DNA of 64,000 nt from Nitrosovibrio sp. Nv17. GTDB taxonomy: Bacteria; Pseudomonadota; Gammaproteobacteria; Burkholderiales; Nitrosomonadaceae. Position 1 is the stretch's first letter, and each line of letters opens with the position of its first letter. The DNA lies in assembly GCF_900119085.1 (NCBI RefSeq), contig NZ_FPIQ01000003.1:1-64000 (forward strand). Reading direction: 5' to 3'. Shown one piece after another: positions 7,385-40,133 of the stretch. The translations under genes and the position numbers were made by a program. The notes beneath the pieces are model-generated. The model was not told the DNA's origin, made no database searches, and saw only the letters and a list, made by a program, of their open reading frames with translations.

Positions 7385-7393
7385 TTCGAGGCT

Positions 7394-7411
7394 CCTAAGT
7401 TATGACTTAGG
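7394..7411. repeat. Palindrome upstream of integrase start
   Basis: CCTAAGT-TATG-ACTTAGG forms a perfect 7-bp-arm inverted repeat beginning 10 bp upstream of the integrase ATG (7384). It covers the expected promoter/RBS region, so it could be an operator for integrase autoregulation or an excisionase site. Confidence 0.45.
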
Positions 7412-7545
7412 CCTATGCTCGTCATGGTTCCCGCTCAGCCCCAGCAACTATCCGGCAGCCGTCCCAACCGCATTCTTGTGCCTCAATTGGTCACTCAAAA
7501 ACGGTAGCTGTGGGTGGATTTCCGTGGCGCTCGCTGGAATGAAAA

Positions 7546-7567
7546 AAGGGGCCGAAGCCCCTCTTTT
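7546..7567 (-). terminator. UUCG-type intrinsic terminator after tRNA-Gly
   Basis: Read on the minus strand, GGGGC-TTCG-GCCCC (7548-7561) is followed by six T residues. It lies about 50 bp past the tRNA-Gly 3' end and would stop the tRNA transcript before it enters the integrase promoter region. The plus-strand reading has a weaker T run, so it may act in both directions. Confidence 0.7.
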
Positions 7568-7609
7568 CAACGACTTACAGACGTCAGTGGAAGTCTGTAG
7601 ATCATAACT

Positions 7610-7684
7610 TGGAGCGGGAAACGAGGCTCGAACTCGCGACCCCAACCTTGGCAAGGTTGTGCTCTACCACTGAGCTATTCCCGC
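7610..7684 (-). tRNA. tRNA-Gly (GCC)
   Basis: On the minus strand GCGGGAA opens the acceptor stem and TTCCCGC closes it, followed by the T discriminator and encoded CCA. The D-arm is AGCTCAGTGGTAGAGC, the anticodon loop is TTGCCAA (anticodon GCC) and the T-arm contains GAGTTCGAGCCTC. The length is 75 nt with CCA. The 3' end faces the clc-type integrase and is very probably the attachment site, marking the island/core boundary at about 7610. Confidence 0.97.
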
Positions 7685-7752
7685 GAAAAACAATGCTGGC
7701 ATTATAAGGATGCTGCACCCTTTGTCAAGGAAGGGCGGCGCGGCGCGGGGCA

Positions 7753-8325
7753 TCAGCCGTGCTTCAGGGCCTGCGGGATCGCAACCTTCAGGTAGTATCC
7801 CATCGACCACAGCGTGAGGATCGCGGCCAGGTAGATCAGCCACGTCCCCACTACCTGGGGATCGAAACGCTCGCCTATCCTGTCGTGGTACAGCAGCAGC
7901 GGTATGGCCGCCATCTGCGACGTCGTCTTCAGTTTTCCGAGGAAGGAAACCGCCAATCCCTTGCCACGGCCGATCTGCGCCATCCATTCGCGCAGGGCCG
8001 AGATCGTGATCTCGCGGCCGATGATGATGAAGGCGATCAACGCATCCAGGCGGCTCAAGTGGACCAGCACGATCAGGGCAGCGGCCACCATCAGCTTGTC
8101 CGCCACCGGATCGAGAAAGGCCCCGAATGCGGAGGTCTGCTTGAGCGCCCGCGCAAGATAGCCATCGAGCCAATCGGTCACGGCGGCGCCGGTGAAGATG
8201 ATGGTGGCGATCAGGTTCTGGTCGGACTGCGACAGCCATGCGGGCGGGAAATAGAAGATGCCGACGAACAGCGGAATCGCGAGGATGCGCATCCAGGTCA
8301 GGACATTGGGAAGATTAAGGGACAT
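7753..8325 (-). CDS. pgsA: CDP-diacylglycerol--glycerol-3-phosphate 3-phosphatidyltransferase
   Basis: This 190-residue inner-membrane enzyme makes phosphatidylglycerophosphate from CDP-diacylglycerol and glycerol 3-phosphate, the committed step to phosphatidylglycerol. The CDP-alcohol phosphotransferase signature is complete: D51, D54, G55, A58, R59, G68, D72 and D76 with the canonical spacing. Several hydrophobic helices follow. The start MSLNLPNVLTWMRI at 8325 fits the family; longer open frame upstream is uvrC in another frame. It lies 62 bp after uvrC and is followed by tRNA-Gly, a common betaproteobacterial order. Confidence 0.96.
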   Translation of the reverse strand: MSLNLPNVLTWMRILAIPLFVGIFYFPPAWLSQSDQNLIATIIFTGAAVTDWLDGYLARALKQTSAFGAFLDPVADKLMVAAALIVLVHLSRLDALIAFIIIGREITISALREWMAQIGRGKGLAVSFLGKLKTTSQMAAIPLLLYHDRIGERFDPQVVGTWLIYLAAILTLWSMGYYLKVAIPQALKHG

Positions 8326-8387
8326 AGGTTCGCGATGCGTGCCCGGATCCGGCGGCCAGGGCACAGGATGAGCGAAGGCCGGTGGCC

Positions 8388-10226
8388 TCAGTGCAGTTCC
8401 TTGTAGATCCTTTCCGCCAGTGATCGGCTGATTCCATCGGTCTGCTGCAACTCTTCGATGCTGGCGGTCAGCACGCCCTTCAATCCGCCGAACCGCGCCA
8501 GCAAGTTCTGGCGGCGCTTGGCGCCGACACCTTCGATCTGCTCCAGGCTCGAACGGGTACGCGACCTGCCGAGCCTGGCACGATGGCCATGGATGGCGAA
8601 GCGATGGGCTTCGTCGCGAATCTGCTGGATCAGGTGCAGTCCAGGATGATCCCGTGGCAATTGTAGCGGCTTTTGCATCCCGGGGAAAACCAGTTGTTCC
8701 AGTCCCGGTTTGCGCATTTCCCCTTTCGCCACGCCCAGCAGGTTGGCGTCGTTCACCCCGAGTTCGGCGAGCGCTTCCTGCGCCGCACTCACCTGCCCCT
8801 TTCCGCCATCGATCAGTATCAGGTCGGGCAACCTGCCCTCGCCTTCGGCGACTCTGTGGTAGCGCCGCGACAGGGCGGCGCGCATCGCCGCGTAATCGTC
8901 TCCGGGTGCCAATCCGCCGATGTTGTAGCGGCGGTACTCGCTGTTGCGCATGGCATGGTTGTCGTAGACCACGCAGGAAGCGATCGTGGCCTCTCCCTGG
9001 GAATGGCTGATGTCGAAACATTCGATACGCCCGATCCCCGGCATATCCAGCGCCTGCTGCAGCGCCTGCAGACGCGCTTCCTGGCTCGCCTGCCTGCCCA
9101 GCATCTGCTCCAGGGCGATCCGTGCGTTCTCTGCCGCCATGTCCAGCCACCTGCGCCGCTCGCCAGTGGGAGCGGTGCTGATGGTCACCCGGCGGCCGGA
9201 TGCTCCCGCAAGCATCGCCTGCAAGGCCTCCCGCCGGATCTTCTCGCCCACGACGACGAGGCCCGGCGCCTCCCGCTGCAGGTAGTGCTGGGCCAGGAAG
9301 GCCTCCACCACCGAAGCGGGGTCGCAGCCTTCAGCATTCTGCGGGAAGAAGCTCTTGTCGCCCAGGTGGCGCCCTCCCCTGATCATCGCCAGGTTGACGC
9401 ATACCCGGCCGCTCCCGATGCTCCCGTCATCTCCGTCGCCCTCGAGGGCACATGCAATGACATCGGCATCGAGCGCCCTGCCGTTGTCGACGAATTGCCG
9501 CTCCCGGATCTTGCGGAGCGACTGGATCTGGTCGCGAAACACCGCTGCCTGCTCGTACGCCTGGGCAGCTGCGGCCTCCTGCATCTTTCTCGTGATGCTC
9601 TCCACGGCTTCCGTCTGCTTGCCTTCCAGAAACAAGGCCGCGGCCCTGGCATCCGCACCGTAGGCGTCCTCGCCGATCAGGTTCACGCACGGGCCGCTGC
9701 AGCGCCTGATCTGGTAGAGCAGGCAGGGCCGGGTGCGGTTGCTGAAGACGCTGTCTTCGCAGGTGCGCAGCCGGAATACTTTCTGCAGCAGCTGGATGCT
9801 CTCCCGTACCACGCCCGTATTGGGAAAGGGACCGAAGTAGCGGTGCCGCCTGTCCAGCGCGCCCCGGTAGAAGCCGAGCCTGGGAAACCGGTGTCCCGTC
9901 AGTACCACATAGGGGTAGGACTTGTCATCCCGGAACAGGATGTTGTAGCGGGGTGACAGCGCCTTGATCAGGTTGTTCTCGAGCAGGAGCGCTTCCGCCT
10001 CGGAGCGCGTCACCGTGGTCTCGACGCCGGCGACCTGCGACACCATCAGCCGGGTGCGGGGAGCCAGGCCCGTCTTCTGGAAATAGGAAGCGACGCGCTT
10101 TCTCAGGTCGACCGCCTTGCCGACGTAAAGCACCTCCCCTTTCGCATTCAGCATGCGGTAGACGCCGGGCTGCGCGGGCAGGCCGGCGCAGAATGCCCTG
10201 GCGTCGAAAGGTGGGGCCTCCGGCAA
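8388..10226 (-). CDS. uvrC: Excinuclease ABC subunit C
   Basis: This is a full-length 612-residue UvrC. It has an N-terminal GIY-YIG nuclease (LPAQPGVYRML, then GEVLYVGKAVDLRKRV), a UvrB-binding UVR segment at about 200-235, a central RNase H-like nuclease region with CFDISH and LILIDGGKGQ, and a C-terminal double helix-hairpin-helix (LEQIEGVGAKRRQNLLARFG). It makes both incisions in nucleotide excision repair with UvrAB. The start is TTG at 10226, only 5 bp after the tautomerase gene, so the two are co-transcribed. Confidence 0.97.
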   Translation of the reverse strand: MPEAPPFDARAFCAGLPAQPGVYRMLNAKGEVLYVGKAVDLRKRVASYFQKTGLAPRTRLMVSQVAGVETTVTRSEAEALLLENNLIKALSPRYNILFRDDKSYPYVVLTGHRFPRLGFYRGALDRRHRYFGPFPNTGVVRESIQLLQKVFRLRTCEDSVFSNRTRPCLLYQIRRCSGPCVNLIGEDAYGADARAAALFLEGKQTEAVESITRKMQEAAAAQAYEQAAVFRDQIQSLRKIRERQFVDNGRALDADVIACALEGDGDDGSIGSGRVCVNLAMIRGGRHLGDKSFFPQNAEGCDPASVVEAFLAQHYLQREAPGLVVVGEKIRREALQAMLAGASGRRVTISTAPTGERRRWLDMAAENARIALEQMLGRQASQEARLQALQQALDMPGIGRIECFDISHSQGEATIASCVVYDNHAMRNSEYRRYNIGGLAPGDDYAAMRAALSRRYHRVAEGEGRLPDLILIDGGKGQVSAAQEALAELGVNDANLLGVAKGEMRKPGLEQLVFPGMQKPLQLPRDHPGLHLIQQIRDEAHRFAIHGHRARLGRSRTRSSLEQIEGVGAKRRQNLLARFGGLKGVLTASIEELQQTDGISRSLAERIYKELH

Positions 10227-10231
10227 TGCGC

Positions 10232-10420
10232 TCAGTCTTCCTTGCCCAGCAGATTGCCTGCGATGGCCCAGTTCTCGCCAGGCAATTCGTCGAAGGCGAT
10301 GTAGGTGTAGGACTTCGGCTTATGGGCGACGCGCTCGAGCGTTTCCGTGATCTCCCGGGCGATCTCCTGCTTCTGCTCGCGGCTGAGCGAGCCGGCGATG
10401 CGAATGTTGACATAGGGCAT
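10232..10420 (-). CDS. 4-oxalocrotonate tautomerase family protein
   Basis: The protein has 62 residues. It starts Met-Pro, so the catalytic Pro1 is exposed after Met removal, as in 4-oxalocrotonate tautomerases. The short beta-alpha-beta unit (PYVNIRIAGSLSREQKQEIA) assembles into a hexamer in this family. The substrate cannot be told; no aromatic meta-cleavage genes are nearby, so a housekeeping or moonlighting role is likely. It is packed tightly between the uracil-DNA glycosylase gene (3-bp gap) and uvrC (5-bp gap). Confidence 0.88.
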   Translation of the reverse strand: MPYVNIRIAGSLSREQKQEIAREITETLERVAHKPKSYTYIAFDELPGENWAIAGNLLGKED

Positions 10421-10423
10421 GCA

Positions 10424-11104
10424 TCATCTCCATTGGTTTGAGTCCCGATCCTGCAGGATGGAACGCGTGGCCAGGTCGGCTTGGATGTTCGCGAACACCT
10501 GCTCGAACATCCCGGCGGTCAGGCGCCGGGTCTGGGTATTGTAACGGCTGCAGTGGTAGCTGTCATACAGCGTCAGGTCATCCGGGAGGGTGTGGATGGC
10601 GCCGTGTCCGAAAGCGTGATCCGCCCCGCGGAGCCCCAGGGCCATGAGTACGGCGCGATGCGCGACCGCGCCCAGGGCGAGCAAGGCAACGCCCCCCGTA
10701 CGCATGAAAGCGGCAATCTCTGCCGCCAGGTAGCCGTTGCAGCGGCGTACCTCGGCCGGCTCGGGCTTGTTCTGCGGCGGCAGGCACTTCACCGCGTTGG
10801 TGACGCGACAATCCACCAGGCGCAGGCCATCCCCCGGATCGGCCGAACCCTCGTGGCTGGCGAAGCCGAACTTGTACAGCGTGCGGTACAGCAGGATGCC
10901 GGCGAAGTCGCCGGTGAAAGGCCTGCCGGTGCGGTTGGCCCCGTGCATGCCCGGCGCCAGGCCGACGATGAGCAGCCGCGGTGCGGCATCGCCGAAGGCG
11001 GGAACGGGCCGGGCGTGGTAGCGGGGATGACGGCTCCGCACCTCATCGAGAAAACCGGCCAGCCGCGGGCATTGCCGGCATTCCGCCGAAAACGTGGATT
11101 GCAT
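10424..11104 (-). CDS. Uracil-DNA glycosylase, family 5 (UDGb) type
   Basis: The first motif GLAPGMHGANRTGRPFTGD is that of UDGb enzymes, which remove uracil and other deaminated bases from DNA. Four cysteines in the family positions (CRQCP near the N-terminus, C in VDCRV, C in VKCLPP) probably bind an Fe-S cluster. The second motif reads SYHCSRYNTQTRRLT, where HPS is more usual, so Pro is replaced by Cys. I start at the ATG at 11104 (MQSTFSAECRQCPRL) because that is the family N-terminus. It heads a repair operon with the tautomerase gene and uvrC and is divergent from efp. Confidence 0.88.
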   Translation of the reverse strand: MQSTFSAECRQCPRLAGFLDEVRSRHPRYHARPVPAFGDAAPRLLIVGLAPGMHGANRTGRPFTGDFAGILLYRTLYKFGFASHEGSADPGDGLRLVDCRVTNAVKCLPPQNKPEPAEVRRCNGYLAAEIAAFMRTGGVALLALGAVAHRAVLMALGLRGADHAFGHGAIHTLPDDLTLYDSYHCSRYNTQTRRLTAGMFEQVFANIQADLATRSILQDRDSNQWR

Positions 11105-11128
11105 CGGCTCCGATCGACCTTTTATAGT
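11099..11128 (+). promoter_or_regulatory. Probable efp promoter
   Basis: TTGCAT (11099-11104) and TATAGT (11123-11128) are spaced by 18 bp and lie about 55 bp before the efp ATG. The -35 overlaps the divergent glycosylase start codon, so the two genes share a compact control region. Confidence 0.5.
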
Positions 11129-11182
11129 AGAATGCACGCTCTTCACTTCCACTCCACATCGATTGAATTCACTGGAAAAACA

Positions 11183-11749
11183 ATGGCCAAGGTCTTAGCA
11201 ACGGAAATTCGGGTCGGCAACCTGATCGAATGGGACAAACGTATCTGGCGTGTCCTCAAATGTTACCATGTCCATGTCGGCGGACGCGGTGGCGCCTTCA
11301 TGCAGGTGGAGATGAAGGACATCGAGGCGGGCACCAAGACCAACCAGCGCATCCGCACCGAGGACAAGGTGGAACGTGCCTTCGTGGAACCGCGCGACAT
11401 GACATTTTTGTATCAGGACGGCGATGGCTACATCTTCATGGATAAGGAAAACTACGAGCAGCTGAACCTGTCGCAGGAATTCCTGGAGGGCCAGTACGAG
11501 TTCCTGCTGCCGAACACCGACGTGCAGGTCAATTTCCACAACGAACGCGCCATCGGGGTGCAGCTTCCCCCCAGCGTGATACTGACCATCACCGCCACCG
11601 AGCCCAATCTCAAGGGCGCGACCGCCACCAGCTCCTACAAGCCGGCCACGATGGAGACGGGGCTCGTCGTCATGGTTCCACCCTTCATTCTGGAGGGCGA
11701 GAAAATCAAGATCAACACCGACAGCGGCGAATATATCGAGCGCATGTAG
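11183..11749 (+). CDS. efp: Elongation factor P, unusual type
   Basis: This 188-residue EF-P has all three domains: a KOW-like N-terminal barrel, a central OB domain (from TFLYQDGDGYIFMD) and a C-terminal OB domain with the conserved TASSSYKPA-like segment (TATSSYKPATMETG) and a GEYIERM end. EF-P relieves ribosome stalling at polyproline. The tip of the modification loop reads HVGGRGGAF with Arg35, one residue longer than the E. coli KPGKGQAF loop. Betaproteobacteria usually have a KSGRNAA-type loop with Arg32, rhamnosylated by EarP. The rest reads like alphaproteobacterial EF-P. No earP, epmA or epmB is adjacent. The open frame extends far upstream, but MAKVLATEIRVGN is the family start. Confidence 0.93.
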   Translation: MAKVLATEIRVGNLIEWDKRIWRVLKCYHVHVGGRGGAFMQVEMKDIEAGTKTNQRIRTEDKVERAFVEPRDMTFLYQDGDGYIFMDKENYEQLNLSQEFLEGQYEFLLPNTDVQVNFHNERAIGVQLPPSVILTITATEPNLKGATATSSYKPATMETGLVVMVPPFILEGEKIKINTDSGEYIERM

Positions 11750-11795
11750 CGCAGGTCGCGGCGGTGGCAGGCCAGCCGGCCACCGCCGGCATGGC

Positions 11796-13130
11796 TCAGA
11801 AGCCCAACTGGGTACGGAAAGACACTGCCGAAAGCGTATCGTTCCGATTCTGCGCGTGCATGGACGCATGACCGATCGCCGCATCGGTAAAGTAGTAATT
11901 GAGCATGAAGCGCCAATTCTTGCGCACATACCAGTTGATTCCCAGCGTGATGATCTGTACCTGGCATTTCGATGTACCGGTGCGACAGGGGTCCGCCAGC
12001 AGGCTTTGATTCAGATTCTCTGCCCTGTCGTAGCGTGCGGCGAACTCAAGCGCGCCCCACTTGCGAAGCGGGCGGGGCTTGCCAAAGGCGCCCCGCTCCT
12101 TGCTGTAGATCGATCTTTCTCCGGTGGCGAACCAGCTGGCCTGCACGTAGTATGCCTGTACCGTGGAGTTCCTCGGCATGCCTCCTGTCGCGTGGGTGTG
12201 CTCGAGCCTCGAACTCACATATTCTCCCTGCAGAGTCACCGGCCCCAGGGCATAGGCGGCCTCCGCGCCGAAGGTCGACTGGTCGCCGCCCCCGGATGAG
12301 CCCGCACTGCCGGCGGTGCCCAGGGAGAAGCTGACTCCACGTCGTCCGCCGTAGATATCGACGACTTTCGCAGGCAGAGAATCCGCCTCCGAATGATCCA
12401 TGCTGTAGGAAAATCCAAGATGCAGCGTGTTTCCTTCTTCCGACAATGGCGCCCAGAACAGCCGTCCGCCGATGCTCGACCCGGCTACCGGCATACCGAA
12501 ATGCGTCATGCTCATGACATGTGCGGCATAGCCCACCTTTTCAGCATACAAGCCCTTGTATCCCACCCCCATCAGCCATTGCCTGCCGGCATAGACCCCG
12601 GTGGACGAAGTCGAGGGGCGTTCCAGCAGAGTGATCTCATTCGAGCTCGCCAGTTCCTCCATGCCGCGGTAGGGCTTGAACTGGCCAATCGTCAATTGGC
12701 CCGGACCCACCCTGGCTCCCACCCAGGCTTCCCGCAGGCTGCCCGGAAAGGTTCCTGCAGCGAAATCATTCTGGAATTTGAGGCTCAGGTCATGAAACCT
12801 GACCGTGATATCGGTATAGCCGCGCCGGAAGTTGAAGCCGCCGTCCGGATGGCTACCGGGCACCTGGCTGCCGAAGGGCAGCTGTCCCGGCCTGGCGCTG
12901 TCGTCGTTGAACGCGTGGACATCAAGGTGCGCACGCGCTCCCAGGATCACTTCGAGATTGCCGTCATCCGCCAGAATCCTGAAACCATCCTGGGTTGTGA
13001 TATCGAATGCGTATGCCTGGACGATGCTCAGGCTGGCCAGAACGACAAATAAGGCAAACGCACGATATCTCAACACGCCACCAATGGTTCCCTGCTGGAA
13101 GATCGGCTGGCTTCCGTCGTTACCCGGCAC
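11796..13130 (-). CDS. OprP/OprO-like outer-membrane porin
   Basis: The protein has up to 444 residues and resembles phosphate-selective porins O and P (PF07396 type). Features are alternating beta strands, EVILGARAHLDVHAF near the N-terminus, FRRGYTDITVRF, and a C-terminal strand ending in Phe (FRTQLGF), the outer-membrane insertion signal. A signal peptide runs over YRAFALFVVLASLSIVQAYA. The listed start is GTG at 13130; an internal GTG at 13076 would put the signal peptide right at the N-terminus and is equally likely. Ion preference cannot be told. It converges on efp. Confidence 0.8.
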   Translation of the reverse strand: MPGNDGSQPIFQQGTIGGVLRYRAFALFVVLASLSIVQAYAFDITTQDGFRILADDGNLEVILGARAHLDVHAFNDDSARPGQLPFGSQVPGSHPDGGFNFRRGYTDITVRFHDLSLKFQNDFAAGTFPGSLREAWVGARVGPGQLTIGQFKPYRGMEELASSNEITLLERPSTSSTGVYAGRQWLMGVGYKGLYAEKVGYAAHVMSMTHFGMPVAGSSIGGRLFWAPLSEEGNTLHLGFSYSMDHSEADSLPAKVVDIYGGRRGVSFSLGTAGSAGSSGGGDQSTFGAEAAYALGPVTLQGEYVSSRLEHTHATGGMPRNSTVQAYYVQASWFATGERSIYSKERGAFGKPRPLRKWGALEFAARYDRAENLNQSLLADPCRTGTSKCQVQIITLGINWYVRKNWRFMLNYYFTDAAIGHASMHAQNRNDTLSAVSFRTQLGF

Positions 13131-13274
13131 GATCCGCTGATCGCATCCGTCCGGGCTTCATGACGGAATAATTGATTCCGAGCGGCGTGTCCGTGTGATA
13201 GCGCACTGTGCCGTAAGAAGAAAATGACTATTATACGTGCAGCAATCTTGATGGATCAATTCAGGGAGACGATC

Positions 13275-13592
13275 ATGAAATCACTTTCGGTTTTGTCTGC
13301 ACGAGCTTGGGGATGGATGGGGGTGCTGGCCCTCGCGGGGACCGTGCAGGCGCAGGACTACCCCATCGGCACCCCGCCTGTGCAGACCGATGAATACACG
13401 ATCCAGGAGCAAGGATCCTCGCCCCGTGGAGCCGGCCCCGGCATACCCGAGGAGGAACTGGGTCAGGATCGTCGCGAAAATGCCCGGGATAATGAACTCG
13501 GGCGCCACCGGAATGAAAGCAAGGAGCGCGACACCCGGAACGATACGACGAAACCGCACGATAATCCTTCCCAACCCAAGGGCGGATACTGA
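13275..13592 (+). CDS. Small secreted hydrophilic protein, unknown
   Basis: An ATG at 13275, preceded by AGGGAG, opens a 105-residue protein. It has a signal peptide (MKSLSVLSARAWGWMGVLAL, then AGTVQAQ) and a mature part rich in Arg, Asp, Glu, Asn and Gly with no predicted fold (RRENARDNELGRHRNESKER). It is exported, probably periplasmic and disordered. No family is recognised. It is divergent from the porin gene. Confidence 0.6.
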   Translation: MKSLSVLSARAWGWMGVLALAGTVQAQDYPIGTPPVQTDEYTIQEQGSSPRGAGPGIPEEELGQDRRENARDNELGRHRNESKERDTRNDTTKPHDNPSQPKGGY

Positions 13593-14314
13593 AGCCACGG
13601 TTTTCTCCGATGGCAGAGTGCTGCGCAAGTCGGTTCGAACGCGGGATACGCCAGGGCCGGTCAACACTCGTTTCACGCTCGCAACGGTGACCGATTTCAA
13701 CTGCAACAGAAAATGTTGACAGGCCCTGGCTGGTTCCCGGTTCTTGTCATCGCATCATCTTCGAATATCGCTTGACATTCCAGAATAATCCACATTCGTC
13801 ACAAAAAATGAGCAATGGCGAATCGAAACCCGCATGGATTCGATATGAAATGATAAGCACATGTTTAAATTGATATAATCATAACGTTCAAAAAATGGGC
13901 AAATAACGAAATTTCAATGTGACAAGCCGACTTACTCTCCCTACCCATAGCTTATCCACATATTTATCCACAGCTAGTGTGAACAACCGAACGTTTAGGC
14001 GACTCCGATTTTCCCCTCCGCATCCGTGGGCGAAAGACCCACCCCTATCCAGCGGTTTCTTGATTCTCTTGCCTGCGCGGAACCAAAGGTTCTCCCGGAC
14101 GGACTAATCCTTATATGCCGCCGCCGGACCGGTGAGGCGGCGTCGTATCCATCTTGGTGAAGACGTCGGGGCCGGGTACGTCTGTATACAAGGACGCGGT
14201 GGCATATCGCAGCAAGTTGGTATCGGGACATGGCCTGCTGGATGAAGTTCGAGCCGTATGGCACGGGGGTGCTGAACTTTCCGGTGTTCTTTACGCTTCG
14301 AATTGGAGGAAACA
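13593..14314. other. Long intergenic region, AT-rich with DnaA boxes
   Basis: These 720 bp hold no convincing gene. From 13775 to 13975 the sequence is much more AT-rich than its surroundings. An extended -10 element (TGATATAAT, 13871-13879, plus strand) lies in it but has only a poor -35. A GC-rich hairpin (GCCGCC...GGCGGC, about 14116-14136) follows without a T run. Confidence 0.6.
13786..13972 (+). other. Cluster of DnaA boxes in AT-rich DNA
   Basis: TTATCCACA, the perfect DnaA box, occurs at 13952-13960 and at 13964-13972, 12 bp apart and in the same orientation. A one-mismatch copy, TAATCCACA, is at 13786-13794. The intervening DNA is AT-rich. There is no dnaA, dnaN or rnpA nearby and too few boxes for a typical oriC, so a DnaA-titration or regulatory site is a better guess than the chromosome origin. 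Confidence 0.5.
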
Positions 14315-14515
14315 GTGGAGAAACACGACCAGGATGATGCACTTGCAACCCCTCCCGGCCCCTTGATCGACCACGGCGCGGAAATTTTCATCAAGAAGAT
14401 GTTCAGGCATTCCCAATCCAGAGTGTGGCGGCGCGAACCCGTTGCCTTCCGGACGGAAGATGGGAAGGACGAAAGAATCCAGGGACATATCGGGATACGG
14501 CCGGCCGAAACCTGA
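14315..14515 (+). CDS. Small hydrophilic protein, unknown
   Basis: A GTG at 14315 sits four bases after a perfect GGAGGA ribosome-binding site, giving a 66-residue charged protein (MEKHDQDDALATPPGPLIDH and onward) without signal or membrane segments. An in-frame TTG at 14303 lies inside the RBS and is unlikely. It precedes the His-rich protein gene by 83 bp and may be co-transcribed. No family is recognised. Confidence 0.4.
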   Translation: MEKHDQDDALATPPGPLIDHGAEIFIKKMFRHSQSRVWRREPVAFRTEDGKDERIQGHIGIRPAET

Positions 14516-14598
14516 AGGATACGCCGATATGGACAAGGCGCTCCGCGCGAGTGGCGGATCCGGCTGCGACCCAGTTTGCGTTCACTAGGAGAAACGAC

Positions 14599-14952
14599 AT
14601 GACGCGATGCGATCTATCCCGGCACGAAGGCCATGCGCATGCACATGGACCGGGCTGCGGCCACACCGGCGTGCTCCACCACGGACATGTGGACTATCTG
14701 CACGACGGCCACCTGCACCACCCGCACAGGGATCACGTCGATGAACATATACTCGAGATAAGCGCCGTCAACCCGGATGCATGCACCTCCGGGCATCCCT
14801 GCGGCGGTCATGTGTCCACGCACGCTCATGGCCCCGGCTGCGGCCATGAGTCCGTCCCGCACGGGGATCATGTCGATTATCTCGTCGCCGGCCATCTGCA
14901 CCACCCTCATGGTGGGCACTGCGACGACCATGGCCCCCTGCAGCTAGCCTGA
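14599..14952 (+). CDS. His-rich tandem-repeat metal-binding protein
   Basis: This 117-residue soluble protein has about one third His, Gly and Asp. It contains two copies of a unit of roughly 32 residues at about 13-44 and 76-107: HAHGPGCGH, then VDYL, then GHLHHPH. Each unit carries one Cys (GCGH) among many His. An ATG at 14599 follows AGGAG. The composition strongly suggests binding of Zn, Ni or Cu, perhaps as storage or chaperone. It has no signal peptide, so it should be cytoplasmic. Similar short His-rich proteins are often labelled zinc transporter permease, which its soluble nature contradicts. It converges on the response-regulator gene (6-bp gap). Confidence 0.75.
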   Translation: MTRCDLSRHEGHAHAHGPGCGHTGVLHHGHVDYLHDGHLHHPHRDHVDEHILEISAVNPDACTSGHPCGGHVSTHAHGPGCGHESVPHGDHVDYLVAGHLHHPHGGHCDDHGPLQLA

Positions 14953-14958
14953 CGCCGC

Positions 14959-15585
14959 TCAGACGAGGCCTTTCTCGATGGCATAGCGGGTAAGCTCCGC
15001 GTTGTTCTTGAGCCTCATCTTCTCCAGCAGGCGTGCGCGATAGACGCTGACGGTCTTGACGGACAGCCTCATCTCCTCGGCTACGGTGGTCAGGTTCTTG
15101 CCCGAGGCGATCAGACACAGGGTCTGGTACTCGCGTTCGGACAGCATCTCATGGGGAGAGCGCTCGTGGTCGACGCCAAGGCTGTCGGCGATCGCCTCCG
15201 CCAGGGTCGACGTGAGGTATTTGCGTCCCCGCATCACCTGCCGGATCGCCGTCATCAGCTCATCGGGAGCGCTGTGCTTGGTGAGATACCCCGATGCGCC
15301 CGCCTTCAACGCCCGGATCGCATACAGGCCTTCGTCATGCATGCTGAACATCAGCACCGGGGTCTTGGGGCATTCTTTCTTGATCTGCTTCAGGATATCG
15401 ATGCCGTTTCTGTCCGGCAGGGAAATGTCCAGGATCACCACGCTCCACGAGCCCTCGCGAATCTGCCGGATTGCATCCGAGCCGGAGTGCGCCTCCCCGA
15501 TCGCGGCAGCCTCGCTGCTTTCCAGCAGGATCTGTCGCAATCCCTGGCGGACGATGGCGTGATCGTCCACGATCAGGATATTCAT
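14959..15585 (-). CDS. NarL/FixJ-type response regulator
   Basis: The protein has 208 residues. The receiver domain starts at MNILIVDDHAIVRQGLR with the phosphoacceptor D53 (VILDISLPDRNG), Ser/Thr of LMFSMHD and Lys of YLTKHSA. The LuxR-type HTH (LSEREYQTLCLIASGKNLTT, then VSVYRARLLEKM) is at the C-terminus. I choose the ATG at 15585, where family members start and which overlaps the kinase stop codon as ATGA. It is the partner of the kinase immediately upstream. Confidence 0.92.
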   Translation of the reverse strand: MNILIVDDHAIVRQGLRQILLESSEAAAIGEAHSGSDAIRQIREGSWSVVILDISLPDRNGIDILKQIKKECPKTPVLMFSMHDEGLYAIRALKAGASGYLTKHSAPDELMTAIRQVMRGRKYLTSTLAEAIADSLGVDHERSPHEMLSEREYQTLCLIASGKNLTTVAEEMRLSVKTVSVYRARLLEKMRLKNNAELTRYAIEKGLV

Positions 15586-34160: not shown

Positions 34161-34192
34161 ACCCGGCACAGGCGGGTTTGCCCGTGCCGGGT
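34161..34192 (+). terminator. Strong hairpin after osmC
   Basis: ACCCGGCAC ... GTGCCGGGT forms a 9-bp GC-rich stem, with an inner GGC/GCC pairing in the loop region. It is about 135 bp after the osmC stop and has only a weak T run, so it may be a transcription or processing stop. Confidence 0.45.
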
Positions 34193-34326: not shown

Positions 34327-36117
34327 TCACCTCAGCCATCCCTCCAGATAGGACGCCCGCTCCTTCTCCGACTGGGCCACTCCGGCTTGGCGGGCACTGT
34401 CGAGGCGCGCCAGGCCGGCCTGGATGTTTTCATCCACCCACCGCACGAACAGGGGGTGCGGCGCGAATCCACTGCCCAGGTCATACTCCAGCCCTGAAAG
34501 AAACTGCTTCTCGGGTCCTTCTCCGGTGGTGCGTGCCGGGATGACGATCGCCCTGCCGCCACGGCTTCCGGCCTCCGTCACCATGCCGCGGATTTTCTCG
34601 ATCCACGACGCGCGCTTGTCGGGCCAATCCTCGCGCCAGGTCGCCACCCTGATCGCGTGGAATTTGTCGCCGCCCGCCTTGCGCATATGGCCCGCGATCT
34701 CCTCCAGCAGCCTGTTCCACATCTCGTTCACGTGATCGCTGCCGGAACCGTGCGCCACCAGGATGACGGTATCGCGCGCGGGATTCCTGGACAGCGCCTG
34801 CGCCCGGTCCAGCAGCGCCGCGGCAAACAGCGGGCTGGCGCCGACCCCGCCCACCGTCTGCACCGGCAGCGCGGTGCGGATGCGCGGCGCGGGATGCGTC
34901 GGCGCACCGCCGCCGTGCCCATGCATGAACCCGCCGTAGCCGGAACCGCCGGACGCGTCGCCTTCCTCGATATCCAGCCCCACCATGCGCTCGATATCCT
35001 TGCGGAAGCTGCTTTCCATGCCGTACACGCGCACGATGACGGCCGCCTTGGCGCCCCGCTGCTCCAGCCGCCGCAGTGCCCGTTCCACCGTCACCGGATC
35101 CGCCATGGAGAATGCAAACTCGATCTTGTAGCGCTGCGCCAGCGGCTCGACCGCCTCGCGCATGGTCTCGTTCCAGTTGAAATCCGATCCATGCGCCAGC
35201 AGCACGACGCCCACGTCCTCGGCGGCGTAAGGCCGGCTCCGGTGGGCCTCGCGCTGCAGCCAGACGGAGAGCCCGCTTGCCGGCGAGGAACGGTCGCCCT
35301 CCGCCAGGATATCGGCCCCGGCCGGCAGCAGCCACTTGAGCTTGCTGTCGAAGGACATCATGCTGTCGAGCTTGGGACCCAGATGAAACGGCACCACGAT
35401 CGACTTCCCGGCCGCGCCACCCTCCTCCGCGGCAGCGGTCAGTTCCTTCTGCAGCCGGGATGCGCGCACCTCGATGTCGTCCTCTTCGGTCTTGTCGTGC
35501 CCAACCAGCACACGGGTCGACGCAAAGCCGAATCCGGCCGCGGCCTTGTCCGCGATGCGCGCCAGATCCGCCTTGATCTTCCGTTCATTTTCATCCCCGG
35601 TCGCCCCATAGCCGATCACCACCACGCGGGCCTCCTTGGGCGCCTGGATGCCGCGGAACCGGTCCGCCAGATCTTCCACCGCAAAATAGCTTTCGCCGTA
35701 GGGACGCGCGTACACCAGCGGCACGCCGGGTTTGTTCCGCTCCAGCAGCGCCCTGGCCAGCACGAAGCGCGGCTCGGCAGCCGAAAGGAACAGGGGCGCC
35801 ACCACGATCCGCTCCGCACCGCCCTGCAGCAACGCGTCCAGGTTCTTCTTCAGGTATTTCTCGGTGCGCTCGTCCGTGACGAAGGTCAGCGCCACGTTGC
35901 GGCTCTTCGCGAAGGCCTGGAATTCGTCGATGATCTCCTCATTCCCGATGAAGCCGCGATCCGCCGCCACCACCAGGAACCCGGTGCGTTTATCCTCCTG
36001 GCCCGTCTCCTGCGCGAAACCGGGCCGGATCGATGTCCCGATCAGCGCCAGCGCCAGGGCGACCCCGAAAACGCGCCAAACGTGCGTCAATTCCCGCGTG
36101 ATGTGCTGCATGCTCAT
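34327..36117 (-). CDS. Exported protein with three CbiX/chelatase-like segments
   Basis: This 596-residue protein starts at the ATG at 36117 after GAGGAGAG. It has a signal peptide (VFGVALALALIGTSIRPGFA, then QE). Three chelatase-like segments follow: one at about 40-150 (FLVVAADRGFIGNEE, without the His), one from about 290 (VVLLAHGSDFNWNETMREA) and one from about 420 (VILVAHGSGSDHVNEM). HGS is the start of the CbiX/SirB/HemH class II chelatase fold, whose His helps insert Co, Ni or Fe into tetrapyrroles. A His/Gly linker (GGFMHGHGGGAPTHPAP) separates the last two. Class II chelatases are normally cytoplasmic, so export is odd. It is the last gene of an operon with a TonB receptor and a PEP-CTERM protein; a role in metal or haem handling is inferred. 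Confidence 0.75.
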   Translation of the reverse strand: MSMQHITRELTHVWRVFGVALALALIGTSIRPGFAQETGQEDKRTGFLVVAADRGFIGNEEIIDEFQAFAKSRNVALTFVTDERTEKYLKKNLDALLQGGAERIVVAPLFLSAAEPRFVLARALLERNKPGVPLVYARPYGESYFAVEDLADRFRGIQAPKEARVVVIGYGATGDENERKIKADLARIADKAAAGFGFASTRVLVGHDKTEEDDIEVRASRLQKELTAAAEEGGAAGKSIVVPFHLGPKLDSMMSFDSKLKWLLPAGADILAEGDRSSPASGLSVWLQREAHRSRPYAAEDVGVVLLAHGSDFNWNETMREAVEPLAQRYKIEFAFSMADPVTVERALRRLEQRGAKAAVIVRVYGMESSFRKDIERMVGLDIEEGDASGGSGYGGFMHGHGGGAPTHPAPRIRTALPVQTVGGVGASPLFAAALLDRAQALSRNPARDTVILVAHGSGSDHVNEMWNRLLEEIAGHMRKAGGDKFHAIRVATWREDWPDKRASWIEKIRGMVTEAGSRGGRAIVIPARTTGEGPEKQFLSGLEYDLGSGFAPHPLFVRWVDENIQAGLARLDSARQAGVAQSEKERASYLEGWLR

Positions 36118-36209
36118 GGCTCTCCTCATAGATGGTCCTTGTGATTGTATGCTACGTACGGCACCGGCGAAAGGACCGCTCGCACCGCACCCGACGTCAA
36201 TCCCTCCGG

Positions 36210-38741
36210 CTAGAAACGATGACTGATGCTGATCGAGAAGCTGCGGCCCGGCCGGGTGTAGCGATCCGGCCCGCCCTGGGTCTCGGCCACGTGCACGTCC
36301 TGCACCGGGACGTCGGCCCAGTGCCAGTACTTCTTGTCGAACAGGTTGAATATCCCCACGTTCAGCCGGCCATTGGGGCTGAAGCGCCACTGCGCCAGCA
36401 GGTCCACCACCGAGTAGGCGGGCGGCTGGATCATGCGCGTCACCCCTCGCGACTCCTTGAGGGTCTTGCGCATCGCCGCCGTGACCAGCCCCTCGATCCT
36501 GAACGGGCCGTGCTCGTAAGCGAGCCCCAGCACGCCGGTAGGGGGATTGACCTGGATGATGGGCAGGCCGCTGTCCAGGTCGCGCCCCTTGGTCCAGGCG
36601 AAGCTGCCGCGCAGGCGGAAGCCCCAGGGCAGCCGCTGGTCCAGCCGACCCTCGAAGCCGTAGATGCGCACCCGCGGAAGGTTACCTGCCTGAAACGTGG
36701 TGAGATAGGGCCCTACATTCTGGTTGGGCCTATTCGGCACATATTGAGGATTGGAAACGCACAGCGGATTCGCGGGACAATCGAGCGTGATGAAAGGGTT
36801 GATGAAGTCCTCGTAACGATTGTCGTAGGCGGTGAACATCGCGTAACCGCGATCGGTATGGTGGCGCACCGACAGTTCCACCCCGCGCACGATCTCCGGC
36901 TTGAGATCGGGATTGGGGATTGCGACATAGCCCAGCCCGACGTTGGTGAAACCGATGTTCACGTTGTTGTAGGGCGGTGGCCGGAACCCCTGCGAGTACT
37001 GGGCAACGAAGGAGAATCCCCATCCCGCGTCGAAAATGAGGGACGCCTTGGGCGAGAAGGCATCGAACCGGACCCCAGATGAGGCAACGCCAGGATTGCG
37101 ATCAATGAACAACCCATCCGGTTTGGGATCAAGGTGGTAGTTGTCGTACCGCAGGCCGGTCACCAGCGTAAGGCGATCCATCAGCAGCCAGTTGTCCTGG
37201 AAGAACAGCGCCACCTGGGTGGTGCTGGAGGGCGGAAGATCGCGTGTAGGCATGATATCGGGACCGACTTCCTTGGTGATCGATCCGTCCGAGAGCAAAA
37301 ACATGCCATCACGCATCTGCCGGGTGTCGGTGCGGAAGGCTTCCGCCCCCCATATGAGGGTGTGCGCGCCCAAGAGCTCGAAGATGGACTCGGTCTGCAG
37401 CCGTGTACCGGTCAGGATCTGCTCGAAGAAGAATTCACGCTCGGTTAATGTTTTTTTGAGGCTGCCGCGATACATCTGACGCCCCTCATCGAAAAAAAGC
37501 TGGCCTGTACGGCTGACCTGCCGGTAGAACTTGAGGTCGATCGTCCCCAGCCGGCTGCCAGACAGGCGTTGGTCCAATGAAAAGCGCCCGCGCCGGTAGG
37601 TGTCCGTCGCATCGACGGCAATCCTGCCGGTACCTCCTCCTCGCGGGAAGGACATGTAGTCCGTATCGATGACCCGCTCGAAGCCCTCCGCGGCCAGCGT
37701 GGCGCGGTAGCCGGGAAACGGCGTGAACACCAGCTTGGCCAGGCCGTTGAGGGTATTGACGTCCTGTGGGTTGGGCTTGGTGCGCTCGAAGCCGAAGCCC
37801 CCCACGTCGCCCTTGTTGGCGAATTCCTGCCCGCGACGCTGCACCCCGCGCAGCATCAGCTTGACGAGATCGTTGCCCACCGCCAGCGTGCCGATCAACC
37901 CCAGGGAACGGTCCACGCCCTGGTAGATGGCCTCGGGACTCACAGCGAACGAACGTCCCCGCAGAAAATCCTCCGGCTCGGGCGAGCGGAACGAGACCAC
38001 CCCGCCTATGCCTTCAGAGCCCTGCAGGGCGGAGCCGGCGCCGCGCTGGATGTCGACTCCCGATAGCATGCCGACGTCGACCATGTTGCGCCCGGCGCTT
38101 GAGTACCCACCGATGGTAAAGCTGTCTGCCTGGCGGATGCCATCCATCTGTATGAGGATCCGGTTCTCGTCCAGGCCGCGGATGTTGATGCTGCCCAGGC
38201 CGAAGCGCGAGCCGTTGTTGCTCACCGAGATGCCCGGCTCGTAGCGGATGACGTCCTTGATGGAGGTGGCGACCATTTCCTGGATCTCCTCCACCGAGAT
38301 GACGTTGAGGGTGACCGGTGCGCGGCTCGGATCCTTCTCGACCTTGGGCGCAGTCACCGATATCGTGCGCAGCACGTTGCCGCCAGGCTCGCCCTCCTTC
38401 GCGTCGGCGAGCAGAATCCTTTCGGATGTGTTTTCGGGAGCGCTTCCAGACGTGTTTTCAGGCAGAGCCCCTGCCTCCCCCGAACCCATGGGCGGAGGCT
38501 CCTTGCACGGTGTACCCGCTACCGGCTGGTGGGAACCAGCCTCGGAGGGGGAGGATGTAGCGGCAGGCGCGCTGCTGGGTACGCGCCCCGTGCAGGGAGG
38601 AAGGACCGATGAGGACGCCGGGGAAACGGATGAAGCAACCGCTCCCGCGCCTCCGCTCGCGGCCGTGGTGTCGGCCTGAGCGAGCGACGCCAGAACGAGC
38701 AGCACCCCCGCCGGCAGGCAGCCCCTGTACGTACCGACCAT
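36210..38741 (-). CDS. TonB-dependent receptor, haem/siderophore type
   Basis: This 843-residue outer-membrane receptor has a signal peptide (PAGVLLVLASLAQA), a low-complexity Ser/Ala/Pro extension to about residue 120 with a short repeat (ENTSGSAPENTSE), a plug (about 125-245: TISVTAPKVEKDPSRAPVTL onwards) and a 22-stranded barrel ending in SISISHRF. The FRPPPYNN and NPDLKPE segments match the FRAP/NPNL boxes found in haem and haemoglobin receptors. It should import an iron complex using TonB energy. It lies 42 bp after the PEP-CTERM gene and 92 bp before the chelatase-like gene. A Fur box upstream of the operon supports iron control. Confidence 0.9.
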   Translation of the reverse strand: MVGTYRGCLPAGVLLVLASLAQADTTAASGGAGAVASSVSPASSSVLPPCTGRVPSSAPAATSSPSEAGSHQPVAGTPCKEPPPMGSGEAGALPENTSGSAPENTSERILLADAKEGEPGGNVLRTISVTAPKVEKDPSRAPVTLNVISVEEIQEMVATSIKDVIRYEPGISVSNNGSRFGLGSINIRGLDENRILIQMDGIRQADSFTIGGYSSAGRNMVDVGMLSGVDIQRGAGSALQGSEGIGGVVSFRSPEPEDFLRGRSFAVSPEAIYQGVDRSLGLIGTLAVGNDLVKLMLRGVQRRGQEFANKGDVGGFGFERTKPNPQDVNTLNGLAKLVFTPFPGYRATLAAEGFERVIDTDYMSFPRGGGTGRIAVDATDTYRRGRFSLDQRLSGSRLGTIDLKFYRQVSRTGQLFFDEGRQMYRGSLKKTLTEREFFFEQILTGTRLQTESIFELLGAHTLIWGAEAFRTDTRQMRDGMFLLSDGSITKEVGPDIMPTRDLPPSSTTQVALFFQDNWLLMDRLTLVTGLRYDNYHLDPKPDGLFIDRNPGVASSGVRFDAFSPKASLIFDAGWGFSFVAQYSQGFRPPPYNNVNIGFTNVGLGYVAIPNPDLKPEIVRGVELSVRHHTDRGYAMFTAYDNRYEDFINPFITLDCPANPLCVSNPQYVPNRPNQNVGPYLTTFQAGNLPRVRIYGFEGRLDQRLPWGFRLRGSFAWTKGRDLDSGLPIIQVNPPTGVLGLAYEHGPFRIEGLVTAAMRKTLKESRGVTRMIQPPAYSVVDLLAQWRFSPNGRLNVGIFNLFDKKYWHWADVPVQDVHVAETQGGPDRYTRPGRSFSISISHRF

Positions 38742-38783
38742 ACGGTTGCCCGCCTGCGGTGATGCCCGACGCCCTGCTTCCTG

Positions 38784-39569
38784 CTAGGCCTTGCCGCCGG
38801 TGTTGCGGCGGCGCACGATCGCGCCCATCAGCCCCAGGCCGGCGAGCAGCATGGCCCACTCGCCCGGCTCCGGAATCGGGGCCGCTGCGATGTCCACCGC
38901 CACCTGCGCGAAGCTCTGGTGCACGTAGGTGCTGTTGAAGGCGAAGTCGAAGCTGGCCGGCGCCGAATCCAGGGTCCACACCGCCAGGTATTGGCTGAGG
39001 TCGACGGCACCGATGCTGCTGCTGGTCGGCCCGAAGTACGTCACGTCCCCGGGAATGTCTATCCAGACGGGATTAGAAGGGAATCCCTCCCCGGGGGGTG
39101 GCGGCGTAGGCCCGGTGCCGACGTTCGACGGCGCGAGACCGTTCAGCTTCACGCTGTTATAGTCGATCGGGGTGCCCCAGGTCTCGAACTGCAGCGCCAC
39201 CGTCACCGGCCCGCTGAATGCCGTGGTGGGCGTCACGTTGATGGTGTAGCTCTGCACCGTCCCGCTGAAGGCGTACAGGTTGCCGGAACCGGCGACAAAG
39301 GCGTTGTTCCAGCTCAGCGTGGCGGTGTTGGCGCCCAGAAACCCGTAATCGGCCTCACGGGAACCCGTACCGGCGGAACCGCCGGTGAAACTATCCCACT
39401 CGGCGTAGACGGTGCCCGCGTCGCCGCGGGTCCAGCCGCCCCAGGATGCCTCGGTAGGCGTATCGAACCCGTAGCCCGGCGCATACGGATCGGGACCATT
39501 GCCATAATCGGCAAGCGCCGGACCCGCCAGCACCAGACCTGCTGCAACTGCAATCGCTTTCAGTTTCAT
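38784..39569 (-). CDS. PEP-CTERM sorted surface/secreted protein
   Basis: The protein has 261 residues. A signal peptide (MKLKAIAVAAGLVLAGPALA) is followed by a beta-rich, aromatic, Cys-free domain and a C-terminal sorting signal: IPEPGEWAMLLAGLGLMG followed by an Arg cluster, recognised by exosortase. The protein is predicted to be processed by exosortase and released or held at the cell surface. I start at the ATG at 39569, seven bases after GGAGGG. As first gene of an operon with a TonB receptor it could capture the receptor's ligand, like a haemophore, but it does not resemble HasA. No exosortase gene is in the window. Confidence 0.88.
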   Translation of the reverse strand: MKLKAIAVAAGLVLAGPALADYGNGPDPYAPGYGFDTPTEASWGGWTRGDAGTVYAEWDSFTGGSAGTGSREADYGFLGANTATLSWNNAFVAGSGNLYAFSGTVQSYTINVTPTTAFSGPVTVALQFETWGTPIDYNSVKLNGLAPSNVGTGPTPPPPGEGFPSNPVWIDIPGDVTYFGPTSSSIGAVDLSQYLAVWTLDSAPASFDFAFNSTYVHQSFAQVAVDIAAAPIPEPGEWAMLLAGLGLMGAIVRRRNTGGKA

Positions 39570-39652
39570 GGAAAATCCCTCCAAAAAAACATCGATATAG
39601 ATAGCTTACGTATGAAAACCCGCGCACGCGGCACGGGACATACCGCTTAATG

Positions 39653-39775
39653 GGCTGGCTGGTCCGAGAGTTGCCGAGGACTGGCTGGCAGGAGATGCGG
39701 AAAACCCTCCTCTTTCCAATGAAAGGGCTTTCCGTTGCAAGGCTGGCTGCGGGAAGTGAAGGTCCGGCTGGCTGG
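39653..39775. repeat. Four GGCTGGC-type repeats in the operon leader
   Basis: GGCTGGCTGG-like units occur near 39653, 39681, 39741 and 39765. The first and last are also flanked by GTCCG on one side. They lie in the presumed 260-nt untranslated leader (minus-strand transcript), where they read CCAGCCAGCC. Confidence 0.55.
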
Positions 39776-39841
39776 CAATGAACCGATGAATGTGCTACGC
39801 CAGGCTAGGATAGCGCTGGGGTATTGGTATCCGTTGCAATC

Positions 39842-39870
39842 AGTCTAGTGATAATAAGAATCATTGTCAA
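39842..39870 (-). promoter_or_regulatory. Fur box inside a sigma70 promoter (PEP-CTERM operon)
   Basis: On the minus strand TTGACA (39870-39865), a 17-bp spacer and TAGACT (39847-39842) form a good promoter. GATAATAAGAATCATTGTC at 39850-39868 matches 16 of 19 positions of the Fur consensus and fills the spacer, so Fe-Fur should repress transcription of the PEP-CTERM/TonB/chelatase-like genes. Confidence 0.8.
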
Positions 39871-40083: not shown

Positions 40084-40133
40084 TTTAATGAGAATTATTT
40101 TTATTATTATACACAAAAAAACCGGTGGTGCAA
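40084..40133 (-). promoter_or_regulatory. Second promoter with Fur-like site
   Basis: On the minus strand TTGCAC (40133-40128), 16 bp and a perfect TATAAT (40111-40106) are followed directly by a Fur-like site at 40084-40102 (13 of 19 to consensus, core AATGAGAATTATT). It would start a transcript at about 40099 running toward the PEP-CTERM operon 230 bp upstream of the first promoter. Confidence 0.5.

Follow-up and report, generated by a model that had tools for sequence, protein, structure and literature searches.

The sirohydrochlorin chelatases SirB, CbiX and CfbA are cytoplasmic. CbiK-P, the periplasmic cobaltochelatase of D. vulgaris, binds haem and has an intact catalytic His. For P. 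gingivalis, the Iht/FetB system has already been proposed to link a TonB receptor with an exported chelatase of class II (PMC10913741, PMC13402209), and dechelation of haem by exported HmuS is reported from Bacteroidota (PMC12583661, PMC13227078). The open-licence papers that join CbiX, TonB and heme uptake concern Bacteroidota, to judge by their titles. With IhtB/FetB and HmuS as precedents, the system described here, built around an exported chelatase-like protein (P0001), is not the new kind of uptake system that an earlier note on this DNA had taken it for. The open-licence literature, which omits most subscription papers, yielded no published account of P0001, no paper linking CbiX with Nitrosospira and none joining sirohydrochlorin, TonB-dependent, periplasmic and heme iron.

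P0001 is encoded within a stretch of 64,000 nucleotides (the window) from contig G000:C30 of a 2.84 Mb draft genome that is 99.83% complete. A relative is encoded in three named records (Nitrosospira sp. Nl5, a Nitrosospira MAG and a Nitrosomonadaceae MAG), which places the host close to Nitrosospira, among the ammonia oxidisers. The haem-rich enzymes of such bacteria create a high demand for iron. The host's own genus is designated g1, and the main other genus of the family, g3, is called Nitrosomonas by inference.

The operon lies on the minus strand and consists of three genes only, with no ABC transporter genes among them. A sigma-70-like promoter (TTGACA-17-TAGACT, 39842-39870, minus strand), one of three promoter-like sites in the 6.2 kb scanned against a chance expectation of 1.1, precedes the gene for P0003 (38784-39569, minus strand, ATG at 39569), a PEP-CTERM protein of 261 aa with a signal peptide and a C-terminal sorting signal. 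After a gap of 42 bp comes P0002 (36210-38741, minus strand, ATG at 38741), a TonB-dependent receptor of 843 aa of the haemoglobin/transferrin/lactoferrin type, and after a further 92 bp P0001 (34327-36117, minus strand, ATG at 36117), a four-domain, class II chelatase-like (CbiX-like) protein of 596 aa. The open reading frames, strands and gaps are thus as the earlier note gave them. A hairpin with a T-rich tail 3' of the operon (34161-34173, minus strand) resembles a terminator and is rated weak, because six such sites were found where 3.7 are expected by chance. The flanking genes are unrelated: OsmC-like downstream, on the opposite strand, and AA-kinase/PUA (proB-like) upstream.

The spacer of the promoter is occupied by a Fur box (39850-39868) that agrees with GATAATGATAATCATTATC at 16 of 19 positions on the plus strand. 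This is the sole match with three or fewer mismatches in the 64-kb window; none of 100 shuffles of the window, and none of 60 shuffles of the upstream region, produced its equal. A second, weaker Fur-like match with five mismatches (40090-40108) is found about 220 bp upstream of the operon promoter, within the divergent stretch that leads to the AA-kinase/PUA gene. For comparison across loci, the best match between 600 bp upstream and 150 bp inside the first gene was set against 60 shuffles in 29 chosen units (L048, L049, L050, L062, L064-L066 and L084 were left out). The match beats every shuffle in 18 of the 29 and is equalled by one of the 60 in one more; in the remaining 10, from 4 to 59 of the 60 shuffles match it. 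These ten include all three tested units in a formaldehyde-gene context, as well as L063, L061, L083 and L076 (the G103 pair). At L028 a two-mismatch box sits 654 bp upstream, just beyond the scanned stretch, and in three Nitrosomonas units the box falls inside the longest ORF, which suggests that their true start is later than the longest ORF start. Fur boxes like the E. coli consensus are described for N. europaea in a passage of PMC3050691. Both the promoter spacer filled by a box and the Fur regulation site proposed earlier are therefore borne out, the latter by the box at the promoter together with the good boxes before 18 of the 29 units.

P0001 passes the Pfam CbiX model (39.8 against a cut-off of 22), stays below the NCBIfam CfbA equivalog cut-off (38.3 against 120 bits) and has no CobN family match at E 1 in Pfam or NCBIfam. 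In the AlphaFold2 model, built with 22 homologues (pLDDT 81, pTM 0.81), an N-terminal helix and a disordered stretch are followed by four alpha/beta chelatase-like domains, at about residues 45-160, 163-295, 302-385 and 419-575. By model and alignments, then, the protein has four domains rather than the three first ascribed to it. Its closest fold is that of SirB (Z 17.1 over 236 residues, rmsd 3.4), followed by the ferrochelatases (Z 14.7-16.0), FetB of P. gingivalis (9b86, Z 15.0), the periplasmic CbiK of D. vulgaris (Z 14.9) and Salmonella CbiK (Z 14.5). Foldseek E-values are modest (best 8.5e-5), and sequence similarity is weak, at 2.1e-7 to 6m25, which we take to be CfbA (an archaeal-type CbiX/CfbA), and 8.1e-7 to SirB; the part that aligns with SirB covers domain 1 and runs into the beginning of domain 2, and the part that aligns with 6m25 is domain 3. 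The AlphaFold2 model, the SirB match and the Pfam CbiX score agree on a chelatase fold.

The fold shared with FetB also invites a reading in which P0001 would insert or exchange metal in an imported tetrapyrrole, rather than remove iron for nutrition. FetB is said, in the relevant part of the review PMC13402209, to make Mn-protoporphyrin, and P0001 would act as FetB does with manganese. The Fur boxes and the repeated haem-receptor neighbours point instead to iron supply, and we consider such an exchange very improbable.

Both the AlphaFold2 model and a simple hydropathy script show a signal-peptide-like N-terminus in P0001, in support of the export claimed for it, which would place it in the periplasm. 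By the same script, a screen that used no signal-peptide predictor and no negative control, all 28 family proteins inspected have a hydrophobic export-type stretch before the first domain, with a mean hydropathy of 1.86-2.97 over 13 residues, some of the starts in this list being longest ORF starts that may be too long. Two of the 28 have a lipobox, and three have no net charge ahead of the hydrophobic stretch.

The canonical two-His metal site is kept in none of the four domains in alignments with SirB and 6m25. In P0001, E115 stands opposite the second His of SirB and, judged by eye, D53 opposite the first; S370 takes the place of the second His of 6m25. Since the second canonical His is replaced at both E115 and S370, the classical metal site of P0001 is not intact. 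His309 in domain 3 (35191-35193, minus strand), which aligns to the first His motif of 6m25, and His456 in domain 4 (34750-34752, minus strand), placed by alignment, both lie in AHGS motifs and are kept singly, with the partner His replaced. Together with H554, they do not vary among 14 diverse sequences with identities as low as 29%. Between domains 3 and 4 runs a His-containing linker (residues 384-411; 34885-34968, minus strand), with three to six His in 12 of 14 aligned members and one and none in the other two. A His-rich loop occupies the aligned place in 6m25 and, by this likeness, suggests that the linker of P0001 has to do with metal handling.

Loss of the two-His site from every domain while three other His stay invariant could also suit a degenerate class II chelatase that carries or stores haem in the periplasm without catalysis and passes it on after import, the iron being freed elsewhere or the haem used intact. 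Periplasmic binding proteins do occur among the lower-ranked Foldseek matches of P0001, and ammonia oxidisers are rich in c-type cytochromes. We regard this as unlikely: the linker points to metal handling, the permease of the L060 operon described below is an FTR1-like one for iron, not for haem, and the host has no FecCD permease over the cut-off to pass intact haem.

The receptor P0002 is a relative of PhuR (2.4e-80). It passes TIGR01786 (356 against 323.75), a model that spans receptors for haemoglobin, transferrin and lactoferrin, and falls narrowly short of TIGR01785 (302 against 316.85), which covers haem and haemoglobin receptors. Its score of 80 against a cut-off of 600 for the B12 receptor model TIGR01779 removes a cobalamin receptor from consideration. 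The FRAP/NPNL-like boxes reported earlier are present as FRPP and NPDL, and the L060 receptor has FRAP itself. The axial haem ligands of PhuR, presumably His124 in the plug and the FRAP-NPNL Tyr519, are not kept in P0002, where they align to G218 and I597; other Tyr of P0002 (591 and 605) are invariant in seven sequences.

Receptors that partner the chelatase-like gene elsewhere are more telling of haem. Fourteen of the 15 tested, from 16 receptor-bearing loci, pass TIGR01785 or TIGR01786, which supports the association with haem-type receptors. These receptors come from different subfamilies, only about 23% identical. The siderophore-like receptor of L061 reaches no cut-off, and the one near L063 reaches none either. 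In the L040 receptor, the sole Nitrosomonas-type receptor aligned, His is found at both positions of the haem/haemoglobin receptor 9dhe that served as reference (GH in the plug, tHf before NPNL), which we take to be the haem ligand places of ShuA. Because L040 keeps the His pair and P0002 does not have the presumed ligands of PhuR, the case for haem as substrate is good across the family and less certain for the receptor encoded in the window.

That P0002 has departed from PhuR at these positions, narrowly misses TIGR01785 and falls under a model that includes transferrin and lactoferrin receptors would also fit import from another iron carrier (a siderophore, a haemoglobin- or transferrin-like protein, or a corrinoid), with P0001 as the factor that releases its iron; the L061 receptor, siderophore-like and with a PepSY_TM partner, leans the same way. 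The preponderance of partner receptors over haem-type cut-offs and the His pair of L040 oppose this, as does the TIGR01779 score in the case of a corrinoid, and we judge it improbable.

P0003 passes the Pfam PEP-CTERM model (24.7 against 20.7), with a C-terminal PEP motif, hydrophobic stretch and basic tail, and just misses the PEPxxWA model (33.3 against 35). Two exosortase genes are present in the host genome (260 and 233 bits). In a search confined to the genus, homologues of P0003 were found in 5 of 23 genomes, the same five that have a P0002-type receptor; two sets of five would coincide by chance with a probability of 3e-5, kinship ignored. In every one of the five, the two genes lie side by side, 21-42 bp apart. 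The CbiX-like gene, too, is present in all five genomes; it adjoins the pair in four and is on another contig in G103. From this adjacency and shared occurrence, P0003 seems to belong to the receptor subtype. A PEP-CTERM protein as part of the chelatase system everywhere is thereby rejected; within the genus it occurs only with the P0002-type receptor. The structure model of P0003 is too poor to use (pLDDT 45.6), and any role given to the protein is guesswork.

The chelatase-like family is conserved, sparse and patchy, with distant members elsewhere in the class. Matches were found in 26 of 125 genomes of the taxonomic family (22 full-length loci in 21 genomes), the gene being broken or partial in 5 of the 26, and in 9 of 23 genomes of the host genus. 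Since the class and phylum searches scored at most three candidates per genome, their counts are lower bounds: at least 7 of 369 in the class sample including the host, the others being four full-length and two partial, and at least 2 of 398 in the phylum sample including the host, the other being a two-domain, lipobox-bearing form. A search around G435 gave 2 of 116, G435 included.

A TonB-dependent receptor lies in the same gene string at 16 of 27 full-length loci. The order PEP-CTERM, receptor, CbiX-like is seen in the window and at L026, L029 and L030, the last gap widening to 399 bp in L029 and 315 bp in L030. Nine Nitrosomonas loci have another receptor behind the CbiX-like gene, sharing about 23% identity with P0002 (only part of it is present in L038, where the contig ends), and at eight of the nine a DUF2325-cluster gene precedes the CbiX-like gene. 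L083 has DUF2325, DUF6746, receptor and CbiX-like genes on one strand, the DUF2325 gene lying 2.1 kb before the receptor, and L061 has a siderophore-like receptor, a PepSY_TM protein and the CbiX-like gene. In the tightly packed L060 operon (5793-15073, genome G435), genes for TonB, ExbB/TolQ-like and ExbD/TolR-like proteins, a cytochrome c-FTR1 fusion and a haem receptor accompany the CbiX-like and DUF2325 genes; the FTR1 domain passes Pfam (83.5 against 25.3) and misses NCBIfam (126.1 against 303.8). The L060 operon reads as a self-contained uptake set.

No receptor is found in the gene string at the other 11 of the 27. Six chelatase-like genes in the host genus are single (L025, L027, L028, L031, L033 and L035). 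Upstream of L032 lie a DUF2325-cluster gene, at 0.6 kb, and a receptor gene, at 4.8 kb. L063 has a receptor 2.5 kb upstream, L046 and L062 are cut by contig ends, and L034, with its decayed likes L037, L047 and L049, sits in a formaldehyde-gene context, L034 itself between dCTP deaminase and formaldehyde genes. The earlier note had staked its proposal on a conserved neighbourhood. The pairing of receptor and chelatase-like gene is upheld, whereas the PEP-CTERM gene proves tied to a receptor subtype in the genus. A chance neighbourhood can be set aside, given the recurrent receptor neighbours across loci.

Several further features of these loci are worth recording. In distant lineages, DUF2325 proteins of about 430-480 aa are encoded close to the chelatase-like gene, frequently together with a haem receptor (L032, L038-L046, L050, L060 and L083); in Campylobacter, a DUF2325 gene clusters with katA and a haem-trafficking gene, its function left unassigned by the authors in the passage concerned (PMC9426514). 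The chelatase-like gene is decayed or fragmented at the Nitrosomonas-type loci L037, L047, L049 and L050, three of which lie beside formaldehyde-oxidation genes and have no Fur box. Genome G100 has two copies (L025 and L026), one in a triad and one single with its own Fur-like box. G491 (L065, L066) has four shorter chelatase-like ORFs of 337-390 aa, some with His-rich N-terminal parts, and two of the four are divergent neighbours. In the tree, the window protein is placed with those of its own genus at weak internal support (82/96). The three other triad members cluster (94/97), and singles and triads are mixed, so that the triads do not form one clean clade with the window; ten Nitrosomonas rows form one clade (100/100).

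No FecCD permease exceeds the cut-off in the host genome (best 22.9 against 26.5 bits), a draft that can miss genes, and the classical haem ABC route therefore seems absent. The weak match is itself an ABC-3 permease (231.5 bits), located behind ORFs that, on visual inspection, resemble a solute-binding protein and an ATPase; this Mnt/Znu/Sit-like cluster is a possible divalent-metal importer. The 22 other genomes of the genus all have a FecCD permease over the cut-off, the host alone among the 23 having none. In the two inspected, G115 and G100, it adjoins NRPS-type and phosphopantetheinyl transferase genes, and on account of the NRPS-type neighbours its substrate is probably a siderophore-like product and not haem; the host species may thus have lost that siderophore route. 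At E 0.001, FTR1 and FeoB_C have no match in any of the 23 genomes, nor Nramp in the host and 16 others, which leads us to reject FeoB, FTR1 and Nramp as routes for released iron in the host.

The reading we favour joins computed features (gene order, families, fold, Fur boxes, conservation and the importer absences in the host) to inferred steps (the haem substrate, periplasmic site, dechelation and iron route). The operon is very probably tied to haem or iron uptake. More tentatively, and a little short of an even call, it would be a Fur-repressed haem-iron uptake operon in which the iron of imported haem is freed in the periplasm before inner-membrane transport. The PEP-CTERM protein would sit at the cell surface or in the matrix and aid the receptor, which, by means of TonB, would carry haem, or an iron tetrapyrrole akin to it, across to the periplasm. 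There, exported P0001 would bind haem and free the iron by reverse chelation, a catalytic release to which we give about half of our credence. The metal would then cross the inner membrane through an importer for iron or divalent metals, instead of passing as intact haem through a haem ABC transporter; candidates are the ABC-3 cluster in the host and the FTR1-like permease joined to cytochrome c in the distant L060 operon.

In favour of this reading are the recurrent haem-type receptors, the His pair of L040, the gene set of L060, the host without FecCD over the cut-off, the Fur boxes, the export-type N-termini and the fold. The lost two-His site, a P0002 without the PhuR ligands and the receptorless loci argue against it. 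Also counted against it are the gene decay in 5 of 26 genomes, the receptors of L061 and L063 below the haem-type cut-offs, the missing FeoB and FTR1 matches in the 23 genus genomes and Nramp match in the host, and a result from B. fragilis, where disruption of a cobalt-chelatase CbiK-type gene is said, in a passage of PMC6460266, to be without effect on use, apparently of haem. A fuller version of the favoured reading is possible and rather doubtful: a proteobacterial route in which P0001 would strip haem iron by a non-classical site, with no haem ABC permease, with entry through FTR1-cytochrome c or ABC-3 and with haem captured at the surface by the PEP-CTERM protein.

The locus bears on how haem iron is used by bacteria that have no ABC transporter for haem. 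If Proteobacteria do have a class II dechelatase in the periplasm, it would give an aerobic lineage a solution so far reported from anaerobic Bacteroidota; it would also provide a first hint of a role for the DUF2325 proteins of these operons and a nutrient-uptake context for a PEP-CTERM protein.

Among described systems, Iht/FetB of P. gingivalis shares with the operon a TonB receptor and an exported class II CbiK-like protein, IhtB, proposed in parts of PMC10913741 and PMC6460266 to de-iron haem. In contrast to the four-domain P0001, IhtB is a lipoprotein of half the size (261 residues in the 9b86 chain; PMC10913741). The Iht system also has an ABC transporter, IhtCDE, and is said in PMC10913741 not to be under PgFur, whereas the window operon has a Fur box, no ABC genes and a PEP-CTERM partner. 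The hmu operon likewise combines a haem TonB-dependent receptor with an exported chelatase relative that frees haem iron, as described in passages of PMC12583661 and PMC13227078. HmuS, however, is a large class I (CobN-like) protein, and P0001 is class II. CbiK-P of D. vulgaris (2xvz, 2xvx) is an exported class II protein like P0001 but of half the size. SirB, CbiX and CfbA have the fold of P0001 and weak sequence similarity to it, but are biosynthetic, and their two-His site is lost in P0001. PhuR and HmuR receptors work with HmuTUV; P0002 is a PhuR relative, in a host without a FecCD permease over the cut-off. By analogy, the P0001 system would work most like the Iht/FetB and HmuS ideas, yet it belongs to neither family, on the grounds that it has no ABC genes, four domains and a class II rather than class I protein. 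What is new here is the four-domain form in Proteobacteria, together with its Fur boxes, its FTR1-cytochrome c and DUF2325 partners and a host without a haem-type permease.
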